Shown piece by piece: positions 20,259 to 35,338 of a DNA stretch of 64,000 nucleotides; the first letter of the stretch is position 1; each line of letters opens with the position of its first letter. Under the pieces are notes generated by a model. That model ran no database searches, had not been told where the DNA came from, and saw nothing but the letters and a program-made list of their open reading frames with translations. The stretch is from assembly GCF_034259325.1 (NCBI RefSeq), contig NZ_JAXIVS010000004.1, forward strand, positions 558,001 through 622,000, in the 5' to 3' direction. Origin of the DNA: Hyalangium ruber (GTDB lineage: Bacteria; Myxococcota; Myxococcia; Myxococcales; Myxococcaceae). Position numbers and translations under genes: made by a program.

Positions 20259-21707
20259 ATGTCCTCCGCTCCCTCCGCCCCCGCTTCGTCTCCGGACGTG
20301 CCGCTCGTCGTGGACCTCGACGGGACGCTGGTGCGCACGGACACGTTGCACGAGAGCCTGCTGGTGCTGCTCAAGCGCAACCCGCTGCTGCTGGTGCTGG
20401 CGGCGCTGTGGCTGCTCAAGGGCAAGGCGGCCTTCAAGGCGGAGGTGGGCCGGCGGGTGCAGCTGGACGCCGCGCGCCTGCCCTACAGCGAGCCGCTGCG
20501 GGCCTTCCTCACCGAGGAGAAGGCACGGGGGCGCAAGCTGGTGCTGGCCACCGCGGCGGACCAGAGCATCGCCGAGGCCGTGGCCGCGCACCTGGGCCTG
20601 TTCTCCGAGGTGTACGCCAGCGACGGGCGGGTGAACCTCTCCGGCGCGCGCAAGCTGGAGCGGCTCAAGCAGGCCCACCCCGAGTTCGACTACGCGGGCG
20701 ATGGCGAGGTGGACTTGGCGCTGTGGCGCGAGGCCCGGCGGGCGCTGGTGGTGCATGGCTCGGCGGGGCTGCAGCGCAAGGTGCGCGCGCTGGGCCGTGG
20801 CGAGGTGCGCGTGTTCGAGGCGTCCTCCACGGGCGTGCGCACGTGGGTGAAGGCGCTGCGGGTCCACCAGTGGGCCAAGAACATCCTCGTCTTCGTGCCG
20901 CTGATGGCGGCGCACAAGGGCGCCAACCTGGGGCTGCTCGTGCAGGCGGTGCTGGGCTTCGCGGCCTTCAGCCTGTGCGCCTCCAGCGTGTACGTGCTCA
21001 ACGACTTGCTGGACCTGGACTCGGACCGGCGGCACCCGACCAAGCGCCGGCGCCCCTTCGCCTCGGGAGACCTGCCGGTGCGGGCGGGGGCGGTGCTCGC
21101 CCCGGTGCTGCTGGTGGCCGGCTTCGCGGTGGCGCTGCTCCTGCTGCCGCTGCCCTTCACCGCGCTGCTCGCCACCTACTACGTGGCGACGCTGGCGTAC
21201 TCGATGCACCTCAAGCAGGTGATGGTGCTCGATGTGCTGGTGCTCGCGGGCCTGTACACGGTGCGCATCTTCGGCGGCTCGCTGGCCACGGGGGTGCCCA
21301 CCTCGAGCTGGCTGTTCACCTTCTCCATGTTCCTGTTCCTGTCGCTGGCGCTGGTGAAGCGGCTGTCCGAGCTGCGGGGCCTGCGGGCCTCCAACGAGGA
21401 GGCGACACCGGGCCGGGGCTACCTGGCCAGCGACTACGAGCAGCTCTCCAGCCTGGGCGTGGCGGCCGGCTACATCTCCGTGCTGGTGCTGGCCTTCTAC
21501 ATCACGAGCAAGGACGTGACGGCGCTCTACGGCCACCCCGAGCGGCTGTGGCTGCTGTGCCCGGTGATGCTGTACTGGGTGAGCCGGGTGTGGCTGCTGG
21601 CGCACCGCGGGCTGGTGAACGAGGATCCGCTCGTCTTTGCGCTGCGGGACAAGGTGAGCTACGCGGTGGGAGCAGCGGCGGTGCTGGTGCTGCTGGCCGC
21701 CACGTGA
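20259..21707 (+). CDS. HAD phosphatase-UbiA phosphoribosyl/prenyltransferase fusion
   Basis: 482 residues. The N-terminal 190 residues are a HAD hydrolase: VDLDGTLVRTD (nucleophile and acid/base Asp), VLATAAD (motif II) and AGDGEVD (motif IV). The remainder has about eight helices of the UbiA family with the metal motif NDLLDLDSDRRHPTKRRRP near residue 247, the form seen in decaprenyl-phosphate 5-phosphoribosyltransferases. The combined protein could attach 5-phosphoribose to a polyprenyl phosphate and then remove the 5-phosphate. That reading is supported by the next two genes, which match DprE1 and DprE2, 10 bp and -4 bp apart. Precise lipid and sugar are not shown by sequence alone. Confidence 0.86.
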   Translation: MSSAPSAPASSPDVPLVVDLDGTLVRTDTLHESLLVLLKRNPLLLVLAALWLLKGKAAFKAEVGRRVQLDAARLPYSEPLRAFLTEEKARGRKLVLATAADQSIAEAVAAHLGLFSEVYASDGRVNLSGARKLERLKQAHPEFDYAGDGEVDLALWREARRALVVHGSAGLQRKVRALGRGEVRVFEASSTGVRTWVKALRVHQWAKNILVFVPLMAAHKGANLGLLVQAVLGFAAFSLCASSVYVLNDLLDLDSDRRHPTKRRRPFASGDLPVRAGAVLAPVLLVAGFAVALLLLPLPFTALLATYYVATLAYSMHLKQVMVLDVLVLAGLYTVRIFGGSLATGVPTSSWLFTFSMFLFLSLALVKRLSELRGLRASNEEATPGRGYLASDYEQLSSLGVAAGYISVLVLAFYITSKDVTALYGHPERLWLLCPVMLYWVSRVWLLAHRGLVNEDPLVFALRDKVSYAVGAAAVLVLLAAT

Positions 21708-21717
21708 GAAGGCCGGG

Positions 21718-23115
21718 ATGAGCGACGCGTTTCAATCCTGGGGGCGCTTCCCGCGCGCCGCGCGGCAGGCAGCGCACCCCATCGTCTGGCAGACGGACCG
21801 GCTGCCCGCCACGAGCGGCACGCTGCTGCCCTACGGCCAGGGCCGCAGCTACGGCGACAGCTGCCTCAACGAGGGCGGCACGCTGCTGACGACCGCCACG
21901 CTGGACCGGCTGCTGGGCTTCGATGCGGCCACCGGCGTGGTGCGCTGCGAGGCGGGCGTCACCCTGGACACGCTGCTGCGGCTGGCGGTTCCTCGGGGCT
22001 GGTTCCTGCCGGTGACTCCGGGCACCAAGTTCGTCAGCGTGGGTGGGGCGATCGCCAACGACGTCCACGGCAAGAACCACCACCGCGCCGGTACCTTCGG
22101 GCGGTATGTGCGGCGCTTCGAGCTGCTGCGCTCGGATGGCAGCCGGCGCGTGTGCTCGCCGGAGGAGAACCCGGACTGGTACGAGGCCACGGTGGGCGGG
22201 CTGGGGCTCACGGGGCTCATCCTCTGGGCCGAGGTGCAGCTTCGGCCCATCCACAACCCCTTCGTCCTCACGGAGACGGTGCCGCTGGAGAACCTGGACG
22301 CGTTCTTCGCCGTGTCCCGCGAGTCGGAGCCGGACCACGAGTTCACCGTGGCGTGGGTGGACAGCCTGGCGCGGGGCCGGAAGGTGGGCCGGGGCCTGTT
22401 CTATCGGGGCAACTTCGCTCCGCCGCAGTTCGACGGGCTGCCCCTGGCCAAGAGCCACCTGAGCCACGGCTCGGGGCTGGCGGTGCCCTTCGACATGCCG
22501 GGCTTCAGCCTCAACCGGCTGTCGGTGGCCGCCTTCAACGCGCTCTACTACCGCGCCAACGTCCTCAAGCGCGGCCAGCGCCTGCAGCACTATGACCCGT
22601 TCTTCTATCCGCTGGATGCGGTCCAGGGATGGAACCGCATCTACGGGCGCGACGGGTTCCTCCAGTTCCAGTGCGTGGTGCCCCACGCCACCGCGCGCGC
22701 CGCGATCCAGGAGATCCTCGAGCGCAGCGCGCGCGAGGTGCCCAGCTTCCTGAACGTGCTGAAGACGTTCGGCGGCGTGCCCTCTCCGGGTTGGCTGTCC
22801 TTCCCCCGGCCCGGAGTGACGCTGGCGCTGGACTTCGCCAACCGGGGCGAGCGCACCTGGCGGCTGGTGGCGGAGCTGGACCGCATCACCCGCGAAGCCG
22901 GCGGCGCGGTGTACCCGGCGAAGGACGCGCGGATGAGCGCGGAGAGCTTCGCGACGTACTTCCCACAGCTCGAGCGCTTCAAGGCGTACGTGGACCCCGC
23001 CTTCTCCTCTTCCTTCTGGCGCCGGGTGACGGTGGCGCCCGCGGTGCAACCCGCTGCGCTTCCGCTACAGGAGGGTGCCCCGCTGCCCGCGGTCCCTCTG
23101 AGATCCTCCCTATGA
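21718..23115 (+). CDS. DprE1-like FAD-dependent polyprenylphosphoryl-ribose 2-oxidase
   Basis: 465 residues, similar to DprE1. The FAD-binding segments are clear: YGQGRSYGDSCLNEGG near 40, and GGAIANDVHGKNHHRAG near 104. The C-terminal half carries FLNVLKTFGG and AKDARMSAESFATYFPQLERFK, which align with the DprE1 substrate domain. In this family the enzyme oxidises C2 of the lipid-linked ribose to a keto intermediate. Where mycobacterial DprE1 has the benzothiazinone-reactive cysteine (ICVDF), this protein reads LALDF, so Ala seems to replace it. Alternative: another VAO-type oxidase such as a gulonolactone or sterol oxidase, less likely given the neighbours. Confidence 0.85.
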   Translation: MSDAFQSWGRFPRAARQAAHPIVWQTDRLPATSGTLLPYGQGRSYGDSCLNEGGTLLTTATLDRLLGFDAATGVVRCEAGVTLDTLLRLAVPRGWFLPVTPGTKFVSVGGAIANDVHGKNHHRAGTFGRYVRRFELLRSDGSRRVCSPEENPDWYEATVGGLGLTGLILWAEVQLRPIHNPFVLTETVPLENLDAFFAVSRESEPDHEFTVAWVDSLARGRKVGRGLFYRGNFAPPQFDGLPLAKSHLSHGSGLAVPFDMPGFSLNRLSVAAFNALYYRANVLKRGQRLQHYDPFFYPLDAVQGWNRIYGRDGFLQFQCVVPHATARAAIQEILERSAREVPSFLNVLKTFGGVPSPGWLSFPRPGVTLALDFANRGERTWRLVAELDRITREAGGAVYPAKDARMSAESFATYFPQLERFKAYVDPAFSSSFWRRVTVAPAVQPAALPLQEGAPLPAVPLRSSL

Positions 23116-23849
23116 AGAAGGTCCTCGTCCTCGGCGCCACGAGCGCCATTGCCCAATCCACGGTGCGGCTGCTCGCCGCGCGTGGGGCCTCGCTGTACCT
23201 CGTGGGCCGCAACGCCACGAACCTGGACGCGGTGGCGAAGGACGCGGCCACGCGCGGCGCCGCCAAGGTGGAGCAGCAGGCGCTAGACCTCAACGACACC
23301 GCCGCGCACGAGGCGCTGGTGGAGCGCGCGACCCAGGCCCTCGGAGGACTGGACGGGGCGCTCATCGCGCACGGCGTGCTCGGAGACCAGAAGGCATGCG
23401 AGCGCTCCTGGGTGGACGCCGAGCAGGTGCTGCGCACCAACTTCCTGAGCGCGGCCTCGCTGCTGACGGTGCTGGCCAACCGCTTCGAGGCGCAGAAGGC
23501 GGGCACGCTGGTGGTCATCTCCTCGGTGGCGGGAGACCGCGGCCGGCAGAGCAACTACGTGTACGGCGCCTCCAAGGGTGCGCTGAATGTCTTCCTCCAA
23601 GGGCTGCGCAACCGGCTGGCGCCCTCGGGGGTGGCGGTGGTGACGGTGAAGCCGGGCTTCGTGGACACGCCGATGACGGCGCACCTGCCGAAGAACAAGC
23701 TGTTCGCCTCACCGGACAAGGTGGCCCGGGGAATCCTCCGGGCGGCGGATGGGCGCAAGAACGAGGTCTACGTCCCAGGCATCTGGGCGCTCATCATGCT
23801 CATCATCCGCTCCATCCCCGAGGGCATCTTCAAGCGGCTGAAGCTGTGA
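23112..23849 (+). CDS. DprE2-like short-chain dehydrogenase
   Basis: 245 residues. The start ATG at 23112 overlaps the upstream TGA (ATGA); the longer in-frame extension from 22629 lies inside the upstream gene and is rejected. It is a classical SDR: GATSAIAQS as the nucleotide loop, LDLNDTAAH, NFLSAASLL, VISSVAGDRG, and the catalytic pair in YGASK. DprE2-type enzymes reduce the 2-keto intermediate with NADH to give the arabino epimer. The C-terminal amphipathic stretch (IWALIMLIIRSIPEGIFKRLKL) suggests membrane association with the partner enzymes. Confidence 0.84.
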   Translation: MKKVLVLGATSAIAQSTVRLLAARGASLYLVGRNATNLDAVAKDAATRGAAKVEQQALDLNDTAAHEALVERATQALGGLDGALIAHGVLGDQKACERSWVDAEQVLRTNFLSAASLLTVLANRFEAQKAGTLVVISSVAGDRGRQSNYVYGASKGALNVFLQGLRNRLAPSGVAVVTVKPGFVDTPMTAHLPKNKLFASPDKVARGILRAADGRKNEVYVPGIWALIMLIIRSIPEGIFKRLKL

Positions 23850-24094: not shown

Positions 24095-24676
24095 GTGGTC
24101 TACGGCGCACAGAACCTACAAGGTCCTGCCACTCTGGCTGACATCGAAGCCCTTCCCGAAACCATCAGAGGGGAGATCATCGATGGAACCCTCTACATCC
24201 ATCCTCTGCCAGATCCGAGGCACGGCTATGTTGTCGGTGCTCTTCTCGCAGCTCTGCGAACCATAGGTCGGTCTCGAACCCTTCCCTCGGAGAGCTGGTG
24301 GATCATCTTCGCGCCCGGCATCCAAGCGAGAGGTTCTCCGGAGTTTGTCCCGGACATTGCAGGCTGGCGCCAAGACCGCTTCCCAGTGCTACCCGAAGAG
24401 CGGTGGACTGAGGCTCCCGACTGGGCCTGCGAGATCCTCTCTCCGACCACGCGCTCTTACGACCAGCGCATCAAGCGCCCCTTCTATGCGCGCATCGGCG
24501 TCCGCCACCTCTGGTACGTCGATCTGGAGGCCCGGACGCTCACTGTCAGCGAGCTGACCGATGGACGCTGGGTCGAGCTGGGCGTGTATGGCGAGGACGA
24601 CGTCATCCGCGCAGCCCCATTCGACGCCATCGAGCTGAAGCTCGGCGAGCTTTGGCCTCCCCTCCGAACGCCCTGA
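24095..24676 (+). CDS. Uma2 family endonuclease (DUF820)
   Basis: 193 residues from GTG 24095. Uma2 proteins have a PD-(D/E)XK nuclease-like fold and occur in many copies in cyanobacteria and myxobacteria; their biological role is unsettled. Visible features: RGEIIDGTLYIHPLPDPRHGYVV near the N-terminus, EFVPDIAGWRQ with the conserved Asp, CEILSPTTRSYDQRIKRPFYARIGVRHLWYVD with the usual Glu and Lys, and a C-terminal beta segment. The DNA here looks less GC-rich and less GC3-biased than the genes around it, which would fit horizontal acquisition. It may be a nuclease, a toxin-like element or a domesticated gene. Confidence 0.83.
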   Translation: MVYGAQNLQGPATLADIEALPETIRGEIIDGTLYIHPLPDPRHGYVVGALLAALRTIGRSRTLPSESWWIIFAPGIQARGSPEFVPDIAGWRQDRFPVLPEERWTEAPDWACEILSPTTRSYDQRIKRPFYARIGVRHLWYVDLEARTLTVSELTDGRWVELGVYGEDDVIRAAPFDAIELKLGELWPPLRTP

Positions 24677-24807: not shown

Positions 24808-27642
24808 ATGCACAACACCTTCGCCTTCCCCCGTTCCCTCCGCTTCGGGGCGAGCCTCCTCGCGCTCGCCGCCGCGGGCCTCCTCGCGTCCTGTAAGGGC
24901 ACGGCCTCCGCTCCTCCGGCGTCGACTCCGCCCGCTGCGGCGTCCTCCACGCCCACGCCCGCCGCGCCCCCGGCGCCCGTGCTCACGGCGCCCGCCACCC
25001 TGGCCACGGACATGGCGGAGATCGTCACCCGCTACCGGCAGAACATCGTCCTGGCCGCGGACTCGGCCACGCTCGATGACGAGACCCGGGACAAGGTGGC
25101 CGTCGCTGGCCGGATGATCTTCGAGCAGAACCGGCACGCGCTGGAGGAGCTCGGCGAGCAGTTCGGCGAGGAGCTGACCGCGGCGGCCAGCAGCGCCGCT
25201 CCGCCTCCGGGCATCACCGCGTTCCTCGAGCGGCTGGAGAACTCCCCCGAGCTGCGAGACGGCGACAAGCTCGCCTTCAAGGACACGGTGGCGGACCTGC
25301 GCGCGGCCATCGAGTCGCTGCCGCAGTCCCCGGCCTGGAAGGCCCCGCTGCTCACCCGCATCGAGGAGGACCAGAAGGCGCTCCAGGAGATCCAGTCGCT
25401 CTACGAGAAGGAGCTGAAGGAGATCTTCGGCCGCTACGAGACGCGCGGCATGACGGTGCGCCGCGAGGCCTGGGAGTCGTACCTGGCCTTCCTGAAGACG
25501 CTCTTCACGCGCGACTCCATCCTCAAGGCCTTCGAGGACTCGCTGCAGTCACTCAACGAGGGCATGCGCGGCAAGGGGCCTCGCAAGGAGCACGCGTTCA
25601 TGCTCACCGGCCAGTCGCTGCCGGACAAGACGCTGGTGCTCACCTTCGACGACGGTCCGCACCCGCGCCACACGGCCGCCATCCTCGGCATCCTCGAGAA
25701 GTACAAGGTGAAGTCCATCTTCTTCGAGGTGGGCCAGAACGTCGCCGTGCCCGCCAAGAGCAAGGGCACCGATGCGGGCACCACGCTCAAGCGGACCTCC
25801 GCCTCCGCCTCCACGGAGAAGATCATCCAAGGGGGGCACCTGCTGGCCAACCACTCGCTCACGCACGCCTTCCTGCCGAAGCTGAGCGAGGAGCGGCTGA
25901 CGCAGGAGATCGACAACTCCAAGCTCATCATCGAGCAGGTGTCCGGCACGCCGGTGCAGCTCTTCCGGCCGCCCTACGGCGCCTTCAACGCGCGCGTGCA
26001 GACGGCGCTCACCGAGCGCGGCATGAAGGCGTTCCTGTGGAACGTGGACTCGCTGGACTGGAGCGATCCCATCCCCACCTCCATCGCCAACCGCGTGGTG
26101 CAGGAGGTGGACAAGTACGGGCGCGGCGTCATCCTCCTGCACGACGTCCACAGCCAGTCGGTGGAGGCGCTGCCGCTCATCCTGGAGACGCTGCAGGCGC
26201 GCGGCTACCAGTTCGTCCTCTGGGATGGCACAAACGTCCTCGGCGAGGCCACGGAGGACGGCGGCACCCGGAGCATCATCGCGCCCACGCCCGCCCCCAC
26301 CCCCTCGGAGACGAGCCTGTACCGCGAGAGCTTCGCGGTGGTCATCGGCATCAACGCGTACCAGAAGTGGCCCAAGCTCTCGTACGCGGTGAATGACGCC
26401 GAGGGCGTGCGCGAGATGCTGGTGAGCAAGTACCGCTTCAAGCCGGAGAACATCCAGGTGCTGCTGGATGGCGAGGCCACGCGCGAGAAGATCCTCTCGG
26501 CGCTGGGCGACGTGCTCTCCAACCCCGACAAGGTGCACCGGGACGATCGGGTGTTCGTCTTCTTCGCGGGCCACGGGGTGACGCGCAAGCTGCCCAACGG
26601 CAAGAGCCTGGGCTACATCGTCCCGGTCGACGCGGACACGAGCAACTACCAGAGCCAGGCCATCTCGATGACCAACTTCCAGGACATCAGCGAGGCCATC
26701 CCCGCCAAGCACGTCTTCTTCGTGATGGACGCGTGCTACAGCGGGCTGGCGCTCACGCGCGGCGGGGCCCCGGGCGGCGACGTGCGCAAGTACCTCCAGG
26801 AGATGACGCGGCGGAGCACGCGGCAGGTGCTCACGGCGGGTGGCGCGGACGAGCAGGTGGCGGACCAGGGGCCCAACGGGCACTCCATCTTCACGTGGAC
26901 GCTGCTGCAGGGCATGGAGGGCAAGGCGGACCTGAACACGGACGGCTTCGTCACCGCCTCGGAGCTGGCGGCATACGTGGGGCCCACGGTGTCCTCGCTG
27001 TCGCGGCAGACGCCGGCCTTCGGGAGCATGGTGGGCAGCGAGGGCGGCGAGTTCATCCTCCAGCTCAACCACGACGGGGAGTTCCTCACCGAGTCCTCCG
27101 AGCAGCTCGACGCGGAGGCCATCCGGCTCAACGCGGAGCTGGACAAGGTGCGCCAGGCGATCGCCGAGAAGCAGCAGCGCAACCAGGCGCTGGCGAAGCA
27201 GTTGGCGGAGGCCCGCAGCCAGCTGGCGAAGCTGGACGACGGGGGCACCCCCGCGCTGGTGGCCCCGAGCCTGGCGCCCGCGCAACTGGCCCGTCAGCAC
27301 AACGACCAGGGCCTGACGCTCTACCGGGAGAAGCGCTACGCGGAGGCGCTCGCCGAGTTCAAGACCGCCGCCGTGCTGGATGCCACCAACGCGCAGGCCG
27401 CCAACAACGTGGGCTTTGTCCTCTTCAAGGTGGGCGAGTACGAGGAGGCGGCGAAGTGGCTGGAGAAGACCGTCGCCCTGGACGCGGGCCGGGCCGTGGC
27501 CTACCCCAACCTGGGAGACGCCTACGACAAGCTCGGCCGCACCGCCGACGCGGCGAAGGCGTACGCGCGCTACCTGGAGCTGCTGCCCGCGGGGCCGGCC
27601 TCGGGGGCCGTGAAGGCCAAGCTGGCGGAGCTGCGCCCGTAA
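24808..27642 (+). CDS. Lipoprotein with polysaccharide deacetylase, caspase and TPR domains
   Basis: 944 residues from ATG 24808. The signal LLALAAAGLLASC has a lipobox Cys. An Ala/Pro linker and a helical region (about 60-260) precede a NodB/CE4 deacetylase domain (about 270-475) with all five motifs: TFDDGPHPRH, ANHSLTHAF, FRPPYGAFN, VDSLDWSD, VILLHDVHS. Residues about 500-755 form a caspase (peptidase C14) domain with the His589 motif FFAGHGV and Cys643 in DACYSG. A coiled coil (764-811) and TPR repeats (827-941, e.g. AKWLEKTVALDAGRAVAYPNLGDAYDKLG) close the protein. Both catalytic sets look intact. It should be a surface- or periplasm-facing enzyme; substrates are unknown. A KaiC-like gene follows 118 bp later. 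Confidence 0.88.
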   Translation: MHNTFAFPRSLRFGASLLALAAAGLLASCKGTASAPPASTPPAAASSTPTPAAPPAPVLTAPATLATDMAEIVTRYRQNIVLAADSATLDDETRDKVAVAGRMIFEQNRHALEELGEQFGEELTAAASSAAPPPGITAFLERLENSPELRDGDKLAFKDTVADLRAAIESLPQSPAWKAPLLTRIEEDQKALQEIQSLYEKELKEIFGRYETRGMTVRREAWESYLAFLKTLFTRDSILKAFEDSLQSLNEGMRGKGPRKEHAFMLTGQSLPDKTLVLTFDDGPHPRHTAAILGILEKYKVKSIFFEVGQNVAVPAKSKGTDAGTTLKRTSASASTEKIIQGGHLLANHSLTHAFLPKLSEERLTQEIDNSKLIIEQVSGTPVQLFRPPYGAFNARVQTALTERGMKAFLWNVDSLDWSDPIPTSIANRVVQEVDKYGRGVILLHDVHSQSVEALPLILETLQARGYQFVLWDGTNVLGEATEDGGTRSIIAPTPAPTPSETSLYRESFAVVIGINAYQKWPKLSYAVNDAEGVREMLVSKYRFKPENIQVLLDGEATREKILSALGDVLSNPDKVHRDDRVFVFFAGHGVTRKLPNGKSLGYIVPVDADTSNYQSQAISMTNFQDISEAIPAKHVFFVMDACYSGLALTRGGAPGGDVRKYLQEMTRRSTRQVLTAGGADEQVADQGPNGHSIFTWTLLQGMEGKADLNTDGFVTASELAAYVGPTVSSLSRQTPAFGSMVGSEGGEFILQLNHDGEFLTESSEQLDAEAIRLNAELDKVRQAIAEKQQRNQALAKQLAEARSQLAKLDDGGTPALVAPSLAPAQLARQHNDQGLTLYREKRYAEALAEFKTAAVLDATNAQAANNVGFVLFKVGEYEEAAKWLEKTVALDAGRAVAYPNLGDAYDKLGRTADAAKAYARYLELLPAGPASGAVKAKLAELRP

Positions 27643-27760
27643 GCTCGCCTGCCTGACAGGCTTTCGACACTGAAGTGGGCCTCATGGCTGTTAGCCATTG
27701 ATGAGCGGCTCGAATGAGCCAGAGTGGACCTATACCCACCCCGCCACGCAAGGAGCCGCA

Positions 27761-29248
27761 GTGTCCAACCCCACATCCGAACTCGCGGCAACCGGCGTCG
27801 CGGGGCTCGATGCCATCCTCCGAGGAGGCCTTCCCCGCAAGCGCATCTACCTGCTGCAGGGAGAACCCGGGGTGGGCAAGACGACGCTCGGGCTCCAGTT
27901 CCTCCTGGAAGGCCAGCGCCTGGGCGAGCGGGGCCTCTACGTCACCCTCTCCGAGACGGAGGAGGAGCTGCGAGCCGTGGCCTCCTCTCACGGCTGGGCG
28001 TTGGACGGCCTCGTCCTGCACCAGCTCTCCTCGCTCGAGGAGATGCTCCAGGCGCAGCAGCAGAACACCCTCTTCCACCCCGCCGAAGTGGAGCTCCACG
28101 AGACCATCACCAAGGTGCTGGACCTGGTGGAGCGGACCCGGCCCCTGCGCGTCGTCTTCGACTCGCTCTCCGAGATGCGGCTGCTGGCGGGCGACTCGCT
28201 GCGCTACCGCCGGCAGATCCTCGCGCTCAAGCAACACTTCGCCGGCCGCAACAGCACCGTCCTGTTCCTGGATGATGGGACGGCCAACGGCGGAGACCTG
28301 CAGCTGCAGAGCCTCGCCCATGGCGTCATCGCCCTGGAGAAGCTGTCGCCCGAGTACGGGGCGACGCGGCGGCGGCTCGAGGTGGTGAAGCTGCGGGGCG
28401 TCGACATCCGCAGCGGCAAGCATGACTACTGCATCATGAAGAACGGGCTCCAGGTCTTCCCCCGACTGGTGGCGTTGGAGCACCACAAGGACTTCACGCG
28501 CGAGAAGCTGCCCAGCGGCGTGCCCGAGCTGGACGCCCTGCTCGGCGGAGGAATCGAACGCGGCTCCAGCACCCTCCTGCTGGGGCCGGCGGGGACGGGA
28601 AAGTCCAGCCTCGCCGCGCAGTACATCGCCTCGGCGGTGCAGCGCCAGGAGCACGTGGCGATCTTCACCTTCGACGAGAACATCAGCACCTTCTTCGCGC
28701 GGGCTTCCGGCATGGGCCTGCGGCTCGAGCAAGCCGCCGCCGAGGGCCGTCTCTCCTTGCGGCAGGTGGACCCAGCCGAGCTCTCCCCGGGAGAGTTCGC
28801 TCACCTCGTCCGCCAGGCCGTTGAGCAATCCGGGGCGCGCGTCGTCATCATCGACAGCCTCAACGGCTACCTGATGGCGATGCCCGACGAGCGTCACCTC
28901 ATCATCCAGATGCACGAGCTGCTCACCTACCTGGCGCAGCAAGGCGTCTCCACGCTGCTGGTGGTGGCGCAGCACGGGCTGGTGGGGAGCATGCAAGCCC
29001 CCGTCGACATCACCTACCTGGCGGACACCGTGATGCTGTTCCGCTTCTTCGAGGCGGCCGGCAAGGTGCGCAAGGCGCTCTCCGTGCTGAAGAAGCGAAC
29101 GGGCACGCACGAGGACACCATCCGCGAGTTCCAGGTCGACTCGGATGGCGTCCATGTCGGCCCGCCGCTCACGGGCTTCCGGGGCATCCTCACCGGCACG
29201 CCTTCCTACATCGGGCAGGACCAGGCCCTGCTGAAAGAGCAGGCATAG
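27761..29248 (+). CDS. KaiC-like double RecA-type ATPase
   Basis: 495 residues from GTG 27761, selected because AAGGAG lies 5 nt upstream; an earlier start at 27698 adds a linker without a ribosome-binding site. It has two RecA/KaiC domains. The first carries GEPGVGKTT, the Glu-rich YVTLSETEEEL and Walker B VVFDSLSEM; the second carries GPAGTGKSS, FTFDENISTF and Walker B VVIIDSLNGY. Such non-cyanobacterial KaiC homologues act in stress, motility or redox signalling, commonly with histidine kinases. No KaiB or KaiA is encoded here, so a true clock is not indicated. The kinase gene follows 3 bp after the stop, so they form an operon. Confidence 0.87.
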   Translation: MSNPTSELAATGVAGLDAILRGGLPRKRIYLLQGEPGVGKTTLGLQFLLEGQRLGERGLYVTLSETEEELRAVASSHGWALDGLVLHQLSSLEEMLQAQQQNTLFHPAEVELHETITKVLDLVERTRPLRVVFDSLSEMRLLAGDSLRYRRQILALKQHFAGRNSTVLFLDDGTANGGDLQLQSLAHGVIALEKLSPEYGATRRRLEVVKLRGVDIRSGKHDYCIMKNGLQVFPRLVALEHHKDFTREKLPSGVPELDALLGGGIERGSSTLLLGPAGTGKSSLAAQYIASAVQRQEHVAIFTFDENISTFFARASGMGLRLEQAAAEGRLSLRQVDPAELSPGEFAHLVRQAVEQSGARVVIIDSLNGYLMAMPDERHLIIQMHELLTYLAQQGVSTLLVVAQHGLVGSMQAPVDITYLADTVMLFRFFEAAGKVRKALSVLKKRTGTHEDTIREFQVDSDGVHVGPPLTGFRGILTGTPSYIGQDQALLKEQA

Positions 29249-29251
29249 GCC

Positions 29252-30403
29252 GTGGTGGGTACGCACGAGCAGCGCATCCTCGTCCTCGCCCCCACCGGGC
29301 GGGACGCGGCCCTGGCCTGCGAGGTGCTGAACAAGGCGGGCCTCGCCGCCGAGCCTTGCCGGGACATCCTCGCGCTCTGCGAGGCCTTGGAGGTGGGAGC
29401 CGGCGCGGTGTTGCTGGCCGAAGAGGCACTCTCTCCCCAGGGGCAGGGCCATCTCTCGGAGTGCCTCCAGCGGCAACCCTCGTGGTCGGATCTTCCGGTC
29501 GTCATCTTCGCGGCCACCATCGAGAGCGTGGCGGCCACGACGCGGATGCAGCAGATGCTCGAAGTCCTGGGCAACGTGACGTTCGTGGAGCGCCCCATGC
29601 GCGTGCCCACGCTGGTGACGGCGATGAGGGCGGCCTTGCGCGCCCGCGGCCGGCAGTACATGGCCCGGCAGACCCAGCTCGCCCTGGAGCAGCAGGAGGA
29701 ATCCGCGCGCCACCGGGCTGACTTCGAGCAGCAGCTCATCGGCATCGTCAGCCATGACTTGAGAAACCCCCTGAACGCCATCCACCTGACCGCCACCACG
29801 CTGATGCGGCGGGAGGATCTCGACGCGCGCACCACCAAGGCCGCCGTTCGCATCCAGAGCTCCACCGAGCGGGCCACCCGCATGGTGCGCGACCTGCTGG
29901 ACTTCACCCAGGCGCGGCTGGGAGGGAGCATTCCCGTGAAGCCCCAGCCGCTGAACCTGCACGAGCTCACCCGCCAGGTGGTGGACGAGGTGCAGATGAA
30001 CTACCCCGAGCGGGAGCTCCAGGCGCGGCATGAGGGGGACGCACAAGGCCATTGGGACAGCGACCGCATGGCCCAGGTGCTCACCAACCTGCTCTCGAAC
30101 GCGATGAAATACAGCCCGGAGGGGACACCCGTGACGGTGGTGACGCGCGGGGTGGGCGACTGGGTGACGCTCGAGGTGCGCAACACGGGAGACCCCATCA
30201 CGGAAGAGACGCGCTTGCGCCTGTTCGAGCCCATGCAGCGGGGAGCCACCGAGGTGGGCAGAACGGAGCGCAGTGTCGGGCTGGGGCTCTACATCGTCCG
30301 CAACGTGGTGGAGGCGCACCAAGGCACCATCGACGTGCGCTCCACGCAGGAAGAGGGCACCCTCTTCACGGTGCGCCTGCCGAGGCAGCCTCCCAAGCCA
30401 TAG
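29252..30403 (+). CDS. Histidine kinase with N-terminal pseudo-receiver
   Basis: 383 residues from GTG 29252. The first 130 residues have receiver-like beta/alpha repetition (RILVLAPTGRDAALACEVLNKAGL, AGAVLLAEEAL, LPVVIFAAT), but the phospho-acceptor Asp position is hydrophobic or Ala/Glu, so it looks like a pseudo-receiver. A coiled coil leads to the dimerisation helix with IGIVSHDLRNPLNAIHL and the catalytic domain: VLTNLLSNAMKYSPEG, VRNTGDPITEE, SVGLGLYIVRNVVEAHQG. No membrane helix. It is directly downstream of the KaiC-like gene and is probably its signalling partner, comparable in layout, not in orthology, to KaiC-SasA/CikA pairs. Confidence 0.85.
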   Translation: MVGTHEQRILVLAPTGRDAALACEVLNKAGLAAEPCRDILALCEALEVGAGAVLLAEEALSPQGQGHLSECLQRQPSWSDLPVVIFAATIESVAATTRMQQMLEVLGNVTFVERPMRVPTLVTAMRAALRARGRQYMARQTQLALEQQEESARHRADFEQQLIGIVSHDLRNPLNAIHLTATTLMRREDLDARTTKAAVRIQSSTERATRMVRDLLDFTQARLGGSIPVKPQPLNLHELTRQVVDEVQMNYPERELQARHEGDAQGHWDSDRMAQVLTNLLSNAMKYSPEGTPVTVVTRGVGDWVTLEVRNTGDPITEETRLRLFEPMQRGATEVGRTERSVGLGLYIVRNVVEAHQGTIDVRSTQEEGTLFTVRLPRQPPKP

Positions 30404-33260: not shown

Positions 33261-33523
33261 CGCGGCTCCTCCGGCGTGGCCACCACGCGCGTCACCACCA
33301 GGCTCGCCAGGTCCTTCACGGTGTGAATGCCCGCGCCATCCTCCTCGGACAGCTTCACCCGGAAGCGGTTCTCCAGCCCCACGGCGAGCACCGTCAGCCC
33401 CAGGCTGTCGAGCTGCAAATCACGAAGCAGCTCCTGCGAGGGCTCCACCGCCCCCTTCCACTCCAGCTCCTCGACGAGGATGCGGCGGATCTCCGCCACC
33501 ACCTCGACTTCCAGATCAGCCAC
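33257..33523 (-). CDS. Acyl carrier protein
   Basis: 88 residues from GTG 33523, chosen because GGAGG precedes it by 7 nt; the longer version from 33571 has no such site. The four-helix carrier fold has the phosphopantetheine Ser in LQLDSLGLTVLAVGLENRF. It overlaps the methyltransferase gene by 8 bp and the ligase gene by 4 bp, so it is translationally coupled in the PKS operon. Likely role: carry the acyl group made by the FAAL to the type III PKS. A dedicated carrier is unusual because type III PKSs often accept acyl-CoA. Confidence 0.86.
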   Translation of the reverse strand: MADLEVEVVAEIRRILVEELEWKGAVEPSQELLRDLQLDSLGLTVLAVGLENRFRVKLSEEDGAGIHTVKDLASLVVTRVVATPEEPR

Positions 33524-34091
33524 GGCGCACCTCCGGGATGAACCGAGGACGACCCTCGAAGGCCCGCGCATACCCCATGCCGAGCGCGGCCTCCTCGGCG
33601 CGGATGCGCACGAAGAGCAGGGCCGCGTTGCCCACGGTGAAGACCACGGCCGTCAGCCACGCGCCATGAATGAGCGGCACGGCGAGCAACTCCAGCACCA
33701 CGGCCACGTAGTTGGGGTGACGCAGGAAGCGATACGGCCCGCCCGTGACGGGAGCCAGGTCCGGCACGACGATGATGCGCGAGTTCCACCGGTCCCCGAG
33801 CGTGGCGATGGCCCAGTAGCGCAGGCCCTGCGCGAGCACCGCCGCGCCGAGCGCCACCCACCCCCAGGCTCCGGGAAACGGACGCCTCAGGAGGAACACC
33901 TCCGCCACGCACGCGAAGAGGAACAGGGTGTGAAAGACCACCATCACCCGGTAGTGGCCCTGCCCCCGCTCGACGCCGCCGCGCGCGAAGGCCCGGGCCG
34001 CGTTGCGCTTGGACAGCCACAGCTCCACGAGCCGCTCGCAGATGAGCAGCCCCATGAACCCGAGGAACACCGCCTGCGTCGCGCTCACCAT
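33516..34091 (-). CDS. Isoprenylcysteine carboxyl methyltransferase-type membrane methyltransferase
   Basis: 191 residues from ATG 34091, which overlaps the PKS stop (ATGGTGA). Four to five membrane helices and the family motif are visible: GPYRFLRHPNYVAVVLELL near 125 plus RIRAEEAALGMGYARAF at the end. Proteins of this family linked to type III PKS genes, such as SrsB, methylate phenolic lipid hydroxyls with SAM. Given the flanking PKS, ACP and ligase genes, that is the most likely role here rather than prenylated protein modification. Confidence 0.87.
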   Translation of the reverse strand: MVSATQAVFLGFMGLLICERLVELWLSKRNAARAFARGGVERGQGHYRVMVVFHTLFLFACVAEVFLLRRPFPGAWGWVALGAAVLAQGLRYWAIATLGDRWNSRIIVVPDLAPVTGGPYRFLRHPNYVAVVLELLAVPLIHGAWLTAVVFTVGNAALLFVRIRAEEAALGMGYARAFEGRPRFIPEVRRG

Positions 34092-35164
34092 CGCAGCAGC
34101 ACCAGCTCGGCGCAGAAGCCCGGCCCCATCGCCATCATCACGCCCCAGTCCCCGGGCTTGGCCTCCTGGGAGTCCAGCATCTCGCTGAGCACGAAGAGCA
34201 CGGAGGCCGAGGAGAGGTTGCCCACCTCGTTGAGCGAATTCCACGAGCGGGCCAGGGCATTCTTGGGCAGCTCCAGGCTGTCCTCGAAGGACTGCAGCAC
34301 CTTGGGGCCACCGGTGTGCGCCACCCAGTGCCGGATGTCCGAGCGCTTCAGCCCATGCGGAGCGAGGAAGTCATCCACGTTGCGGCGGATGTGGTCACTC
34401 ACGAGCTGAGGCACCTTGGCCGACAGCACCACCTTGAAGCCGGTGTCGACGACATCCCACCCCATGATGCGCTCGGTGTCCGGGTAGAACACCGCCTGCG
34501 AGGCCACCACGCGAGGCCCCTTGGACTTCGCCTCCGCCCCCTGCATCACCACGCACGCGGCCCCATCTCCGAAGAGGCCCGAGGCGATGATGTTGGGGAT
34601 GGACAGGTCCTCGCGCTGGAGCGTGAGCGAGCACAGCTCCACGGAGAGCACGAGCGCGGTGTGGCCAGGAAAGCCGCGCAGGTAGTCGGCGGCCCGCGCC
34701 GTGCCCGCCGCGCCCGCCACGCACCCCAACCCGAAGATGGGCGTGCGCTTGATGTCATTGCGAAAGCCCAGCCGGTTGGTCAGCCGCGCCTCGATGCTGG
34801 GCGTGGCCAGGCCCGTCACGGTGACGAAGAAGATGTGGTCCACGTCGCGCGGAGTGAGCCCCGCCTTGTCCAGCGCCTCGCGCACCACCTTCTCGCCCAG
34901 CTCGGTCGCGACGCGGATCCACGCGTCATTGCGTTGCTGGAAGGTGACCATCGAAGGGTACTGGTCGACGGGCACGGCCAGGAAGCGCCCGGAGACGTTC
35001 ACCGCGCGGTGGAGATCCTCCAACCGCTCGAGGTTGAAGTGCTTGGTGGCCCACAGGGCGCGGAAGGCGCTGATGAGCTGCTCCTGGGGCACGTAGTGCG
35101 ACGGCAGGCCGCGTCCAACGGCGCGGATGAAGGGAGCGGGGGCCTGCGTGGGTAGGCTGTGCAT
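34085..35164 (-). CDS. Type III polyketide synthase (chalcone-synthase-like)
   Basis: 359 residues from ATG 35164 with GGAAGGAG 5 nt upstream. The catalytic triad is intact: Cys148 in IFGLGCVAGAAG, His283 in WVAHTGGPKVLQ and Asn316 in NEVGNLSSASVLF, in the order and spacing of chalcone synthase. It condenses a starter acyl chain with malonyl-CoA units. With a fatty-acyl ligase, ACP, membrane methyltransferase and flavoprotein downstream, the expected product is an alkylresorcinol, alkylpyrone or alkylquinone lipid. It heads the operon; about 174 bp separate it from the end of modC and hold its promoter. Confidence 0.92.
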   Translation of the reverse strand: MHSLPTQAPAPFIRAVGRGLPSHYVPQEQLISAFRALWATKHFNLERLEDLHRAVNVSGRFLAVPVDQYPSMVTFQQRNDAWIRVATELGEKVVREALDKAGLTPRDVDHIFFVTVTGLATPSIEARLTNRLGFRNDIKRTPIFGLGCVAGAAGTARAADYLRGFPGHTALVLSVELCSLTLQREDLSIPNIIASGLFGDGAACVVMQGAEAKSKGPRVVASQAVFYPDTERIMGWDVVDTGFKVVLSAKVPQLVSDHIRRNVDDFLAPHGLKRSDIRHWVAHTGGPKVLQSFEDSLELPKNALARSWNSLNEVGNLSSASVLFVLSEMLDSQEAKPGDWGVMMAMGPGFCAELVLLRW

Positions 35165-35338
35165 GAAGCTCCTTCCAGAGAACTCTCGCCTTAACCAAGG
35201 AACGCGGCGGAAGCGACCGGGGAAGGGTGCATTGGAGCCCCCCTGACGCCCCCAGCGGCGCATTGTCACACGGATGACAGAGCGAGTTCCTTCAGCCGAC
35301 ACCTGACGCGAGACTTTCCCGTGGCGAACAGCCGCGCC

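Follow-up and report, generated by a model that had tools for sequence, protein, structure and literature searches.

The locus described here raises the question of why one predicted envelope lipoprotein should carry both a polysaccharide deacetylase and a caspase-fold protease, and what such a protein could do for its host. The gene lies in a window of 64,000 nucleotides from Hyalangium ruber, which is the whole stretch of DNA that was analysed, and its reading frame is open across 944 codons encoding a protein of 102 kDa, or 99 kDa without residues 1-30. From the N- to the C-terminus the protein consists of a lipobox, a helical domain of ~190 residues, a CE4/NodB domain, a caspase fold, a long helix and TPRs (Table 1). 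Re-reading of the sequence showed the coordinates and frame to be exact and the motifs quoted in the initial annotation to sit at the positions given there. The same annotation had raised the possibility of a frame error joining two genes, and this is ruled out because the whole architecture recurs in full-length homologues from more than 20 other genomes. A frameshift, a chimeric join and a recent accidental fusion were rejected on the same grounds, the homologues being independent of one another. The arrangement of deacetylase, caspase and TPRs in one protein is that of a real and intact gene. A search for sigma-70 promoters and terminators gave nothing above chance.

Table 1. Features of the lipoprotein gene and their positions in the window; fractions give the number of aligned proteins in which the residues are invariant.
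Feature	Position	Strand	Basis or conservation
Whole gene, 944 aa, lipoprotein with CE4 deacetylase, caspase-fold protease and TPRs (predicted)	24808..27642	+	
Signal peptide and lipobox, residues 1-29 (LASC), Lys +2, Ala +7	24808..24894	+	Sequence reading; same lipobox type in L009, L010
N-terminal all-helical domain, residues 61-252	24988..25563	+	18 invariant residues in 22 rows
CE4/NodB polysaccharide deacetylase domain, residues 265-479	25600..26244	+	Pfam, structure matches
CE4 motif 1 TFDDGPH (279-285): predicted base Asp281, metal ligand Asp282	25642..25662	+	24/24
CE4 motif 2 NHSLTH (348-353): predicted metal ligands His349, His353	25849..25866	+	24/24
CE4 motif 5 ILLHD (442-446): predicted catalytic acid His445	26131..26145	+	24/24
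Low-confidence Pro/Ala-rich linker between deacetylase and caspase, residues 480-504	26245..26319	+	No invariant basic residue
Caspase-fold protease domain (Peptidase_C14), residues 505-754	26320..27069	+	Pfam, structure matches
Asp530, second predicted S1 acid, probable TbMCA2 Asp95 position	26395..26397	+	24/24
Catalytic His589 (AGHG)	26572..26574	+	24/24
Asp641 (predicted S1 acid) to catalytic Cys643 (DACYSG)	26728..26736	+	24/24; aligned to metacaspases
EF-hand-like Ca2+ loop D708-x-N-x-D-G-x-x-T-x-x-E719, inside caspase domain	26929..26964	+	24/24
Predicted long helix (possible coiled coil), residues 769-810	27112..27237	+	Model, low to moderate confidence
TPR repeats, residues 824-942	27277..27633	+	Pfam, model, structure matches

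The deacetylase site was described as complete, and this holds, as all five NodB/CE4 motifs are present, including RPPYG (387-391) and VDSLDW (413-418), together with a Pfam Polysacc_deac_1 match at residues 270-408 (E 1.8e-28). Homologues were collected by a pattern-based scan of GTDB contigs and invariance was counted over 24 aligned sequences, in all of which Asp281, Asp282, His349, His353, Arg387, Asp414 and His445 are unchanged. The model of residues 252-479 matches the peptidoglycan deacetylase Bc1960 (4l1g_D) with VIA Z 25.3 and rmsd 2.2 Å over 203 aligned residues, where this and the other Foldseek and VIA matches report fold and not activity. The features of carbohydrate esterase family 4 are thus found in the NodB fold of the model and in the Asp-His-His ligands and catalytic Asp and His of the alignment. 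The closest solved relatives include the peptidoglycan deacetylases PgdA, PdaC, Bc1960 and Bd3279, and chitin and xylan deacetylases match as well, so that the substrate is not readable from sequence. Membership in the NCBIfam PgdA equivalogs was rejected, with 117 bits against a cut-off of 800 and 101 against 400. By fold and motifs, the domain most likely functions in the metal-dependent removal of N-acetyl groups from the amino sugars of peptidoglycan or from a matrix polysaccharide.

The caspase assignment with its His589/Cys643 dyad is likewise confirmed by a Peptidase_C14 match at residues 509-708 (E 3.6e-21), and the dyad, Asp530, Asp641 and Arg651 are invariant in the 24 aligned proteins. 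Model residues 503-754 match MALT1 (4i1r; VIA Z 22.0, rmsd 2.5 Å, 196 aligned) and residues 507-756 match metacaspase 4 (6w8r_B; VIA Z 21.3, rmsd 2.9 Å, 213 aligned). Alignment places Asp530 and Asp641 in the S1 region of metacaspases, at the probable positions of TbMCA2 Asp95 and Asp211, for which a part in the binding of substrate or in activity is indicated (PMC4357240), and their location predicts specificity for Arg or Lys. The caspase fold, the His/Cys dyad and the acidic S1 pocket, the last judged by alignment, are those of peptidase family C14, and the domain most likely works as a protease that cleaves after Arg or Lys. Within it lies an EF-hand-type loop whose key positions Asp708, Asn710, Asp712, Gly713, Thr716 and Glu719 are invariant in 24/24 proteins and which is modelled as a classical helix-loop-helix (helix 694-706, short strand 714-716, helix 717-731), suggesting that the protease is probably Ca2+-dependent. 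The motif is not unique to the family, since it is seen in two of eight other caspases examined.

The lipoprotein claim is borne out at the sequence level by the lipobox L26-A27-S28-C29, read by eye, with Lys at +2, and the protein is probably exported and lipid-anchored by its N-terminus. In the alignment the three members from myxobacteria and the two Xanthomonadaceae-like ones have a lipobox, and most members elsewhere have a hydrophobic N-terminal segment without one. The helical domain that follows gave no Pfam match and no PDB relative in searches with Pfam, Foldseek and VIA, and it reaches a pLDDT of 83 when folded alone. Known folds were considered for it and rejected (Foldseek best E 0.4; VIA best Z 6.3 to 6yxq, rmsd 3.4 Å over 130 residues) because helical bundles can reach such scores by chance, which does not in itself show a new fold. 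At the other end, several Pfam TPR models match above the gathering score at residues ~826-930 (E down to 1e-11), as the initial annotation had claimed. Its coiled coil stands in part: a long helix is predicted, but as a single helix of low to moderate confidence, and its sequence is poorly conserved outside the myxobacterial members. Mean top-residue frequency falls from 0.80 in the caspase to 0.74 in the TPRs, 0.71 in the CE4 domain and 0.61 in the N-terminal domain. An AlphaFold run with a 22-row alignment (mean pLDDT 74, pTM 0.36) bears out the structural check proposed earlier, in that both catalytic folds are predicted with every catalytic residue present; at this pTM the prediction covers each catalytic domain and not their arrangement.

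Proteins with the same domain order occur at 41-81% identity in Myxococcota, Burkholderiales, Acidobacteria and Xanthomonadaceae-like genomes. Identity is 81% in a Myxococcaceae MAG (L009) and 72% in Myxococcus sp. RHSTA-1-4 (L010), and lies at 41-45% in Duganella, Rugamonas, Undibacterium, Solimicrobium, Roseateles/Pelomonas, an Acidobacteria MAG and others. Conservation across Cystobacterineae, put forward for checking in the initial annotation, was not found, a full-length copy being absent from all 23 other genera sampled of the host's family. In the class of the Undibacterium genome G040, three of 369 sampled genomes match, namely G040 itself and the Xanthomonadaceae-like L068 and L069. 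All three myxobacterial proteins fall on a single branch of the tree, distant from the rest (the placement of L012, on a long branch, is unsure). Occurrence is wide but patchy, and the myxobacterial branch has diverged; as a Myxococcus species and the MAG have the gene and 23 sampled genera are without a full-length copy, either frequent gain and loss or transfer is suggested. Two further proteins have ~40% identity and no CE4 match, one in a Cloacimonadota MAG (L031, 1718-4357) covering the caspase part only and one in a Desulfatibia MAG (L032, 7584-10460) covering the caspase part and some of the region after it, and these are possible relatives predating the fusion.

The combination of domains had been called unusual, and it proves to be that of an already recognised family, the 'Xanthomonas-type metacaspase' of Asplund-Samuelsson et al. 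2012, comprising 17 proteins that combine a deacetylase with a metacaspase, in most cases with one to three TPRs as well, all with the dyad, from Xanthomonas, Xylella, Stenotrophomonas and two Acidobacteria (PMC3501461). In the first three genera the gene adjoins trmE and is near yidC and rnpA (PMC3501461). In L068, where the context was established by a Pfam run, and L069, where it was read by eye, the gene has yidC on one side and mnmE on the other, and dnaA and dnaN are close by. Each of the two proteins shares 43% identity with the window protein along almost its entire length (874 columns for L068), and this homology to proteins in the published yidC/mnmE context identifies the window protein as a member of the Xanthomonas-type deacetylase-caspase-TPR family. 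Its single chain runs from deacetylase through caspase to TPRs, has a mass (102 kDa, or 99 kDa without residues 1-30) that fits the family's ~97-100 kDa and keeps an intact His/Cys dyad, and its neighbours are Uma2 and KaiC/histidine kinase genes and not mnmE (trmE), a difference not used to exclude it because context is not defining in PMC3501461 and neighbours vary among the other homologues. In the literature searched, no biochemical or genetic test of any family member, including a knockout, was found, and the myxobacterial branch, the EF-hand loop in the family and the N-terminal domain are absent from it.

The Uma2-family gene, for a putative nuclease, lies 131 bases upstream (24095-24676, +), and directly downstream 27698-30403 (+) encodes a double-domain KaiC-like ATPase and then a HisKA/HATPase histidine kinase, a pair that is not beside the gene in the sibling MAG L009. 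A conserved operon partner was rejected, as no neighbours are common to distant genera and only close relatives share them, and no pathway is thus tied to the gene. Further upstream, 20259-23849 (+) carries in a row a UbiA/HAD prenyltransferase, an FAD-binding oxidase and a short-chain dehydrogenase, resembling a decaprenylphosphoryl-arabinose (DprE1/DprE2-like) cassette, which would not be expected of a myxobacterium; of these assignments only UbiA, HAD and FAD_binding_4 have Pfam support. On the opposite strand are a type III polyketide synthase of the chalcone/stilbene synthase family (34085-35302, -) and, beside it, a gene that reads like an isoprenylcysteine methyltransferase (33516-34244, -).

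The best reading, which is given an even chance, is that of an anchored, exported bifunctional protein, a deacetylase and Ca2+-responsive Arg/Lys protease with TPRs for docking. The N-terminus would fix the exported protein to the membrane, on its periplasmic or matrix side, where the CE4 domain would deacetylate peptidoglycan or another polysaccharide in a metal-dependent manner and the EF-hand-like loop would let Ca2+ gate the Arg/Lys protease. The TPRs would most likely offer a docking surface for protein substrates or partners and so bring both activities to one envelope site, the favoured role being a remodelling of the envelope that stress sets off and that can lead to lysis. A misfit to this reading comes from Xanthomonas, where the caspase-3-like activity is Asp-directed and the specificity predicted here is for Arg/Lys.

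The same Xanthomonas data are the starting point for an unlikely alternative, in which the protein executes programmed death: under stress the caspase would cut itself or the linker, the deacetylase would be freed and the cell would lyse. Cell death and caspase-3-like activity in Xanthomonas were assigned to this gene type indirectly, by antibody cross-reaction and homology, and the protein was detected at ~55 kDa against the ~100 kDa encoded (PMC3501461). This indirect link is the sole functional one, and the roles put forward in the initial annotation, in wall damage sensing, programmed lysis or developmental remodelling, stay at the level of inference. A cut in the linker of the window protein is computed to yield ~50 and 49 kDa pieces, a rough fit to the 55 kDa form, and the invariance of Arg651 just past the catalytic Cys is also consistent with self-cleavage. 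Between residues 474 and 508, however, no basic residue is invariant and no single column is more than 67% basic, so that the family has no common linker site, and the acidic S1 residues predicted here fit poorly with the Asp-directed caspase-3 substrates of the Xanthomonas assays.

It is likewise improbable that the protein is an extracellular-matrix enzyme, a lipoprotein modifying exopolysaccharide or the prey wall with its protease acting on matrix or prey proteins. In M. xanthus, a Lys at +2 has been linked to lipoproteins of the inner membrane and an Ala at +7 to those of the matrix, and in FibA the Ala overrode Lys +2 (PMC3222651). All three myxobacterial members carry both residues, so the inner membrane and the matrix are not separable by this signal: Ala +7 is the reported matrix signal, although it weighs little in a post-lipobox region rich in Ala and Pro, and Lys +2 points to the inner membrane. 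The CE4 domain is 31% identical over 191 aligned residues to Bd3279 of the predatory Bdellovibrio, but most of the wider family belongs to bacteria that are not known to prey on others, and it retains a membrane anchor.

A more specific proposal, that of damage sensing, is quite improbable: Ca2+ entering through a damaged envelope would switch on the Arg/Lys protease via the EF-hand loop, envelope proteins bound to the TPRs would be cut and the deacetylase would mark peptidoglycan, so that the sensing of damage would be linked to remodelling of the wall or to lysis. Least probable is housekeeping wall maintenance, in which the deacetylase works and the caspase regulates or turns over its own protein or envelope partners with no part in death, for although caspase homologues with non-death roles exist and the Xanthomonadaceae-like gene sits among the housekeeping genes yidC, mnmE, dnaA and dnaN, the patchy occurrence, with a full-length copy in none of the 23 other sampled family genera and matches in three of 369 sampled genomes of the Undibacterium class, speaks against it.

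The joining of a probably exported caspase homologue to a wall-modifying enzyme offers a direct and testable route from protease to cell wall and bears on what bacterial caspase homologues do, and a widespread but sparse family gains predicted lipid-anchored myxobacterial members in hosts with predation, development and developmental lysis.

Among known systems, the CE4 peptidoglycan deacetylases PgdA, PdaC, Bc1960 and Bd3279 have the same fold and the full catalytic motif set (VIA Z ~22-25), but unlike them the window protein is fused to a protease and TPRs. With the metacaspases, orthocaspases and MALT1 of family C14 it has in common the caspase fold, the His/Cys dyad and the acidic S1 residues, whereas it is probably exported, is fused to a CE4 domain and carries the EF-hand-like loop in the protease domain; MALT1 has an Ig domain, and Pfam finds none here. 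The domain is homologous to NCBIfam NF047832 (EACC1-associated bacterial caspase; E 8.3e-23), of which it is not a member by that model with 81 bits against a cut-off of 140, and scores to all named NCBIfam families are below cut-off. The closest likeness is to the Xanthomonas-type metacaspases, with the same domain order, a size of ~100 kDa and the conserved His/Cys dyad. Myxobacterial taxa are not among the hosts named for that family in PMC3501461, in whose text the EF-hand and calcium are absent, and the myxobacterial branch differs from it in being without the yidC/mnmE context and in having a long, poorly conserved helix region and a lipobox followed by Lys at +2.
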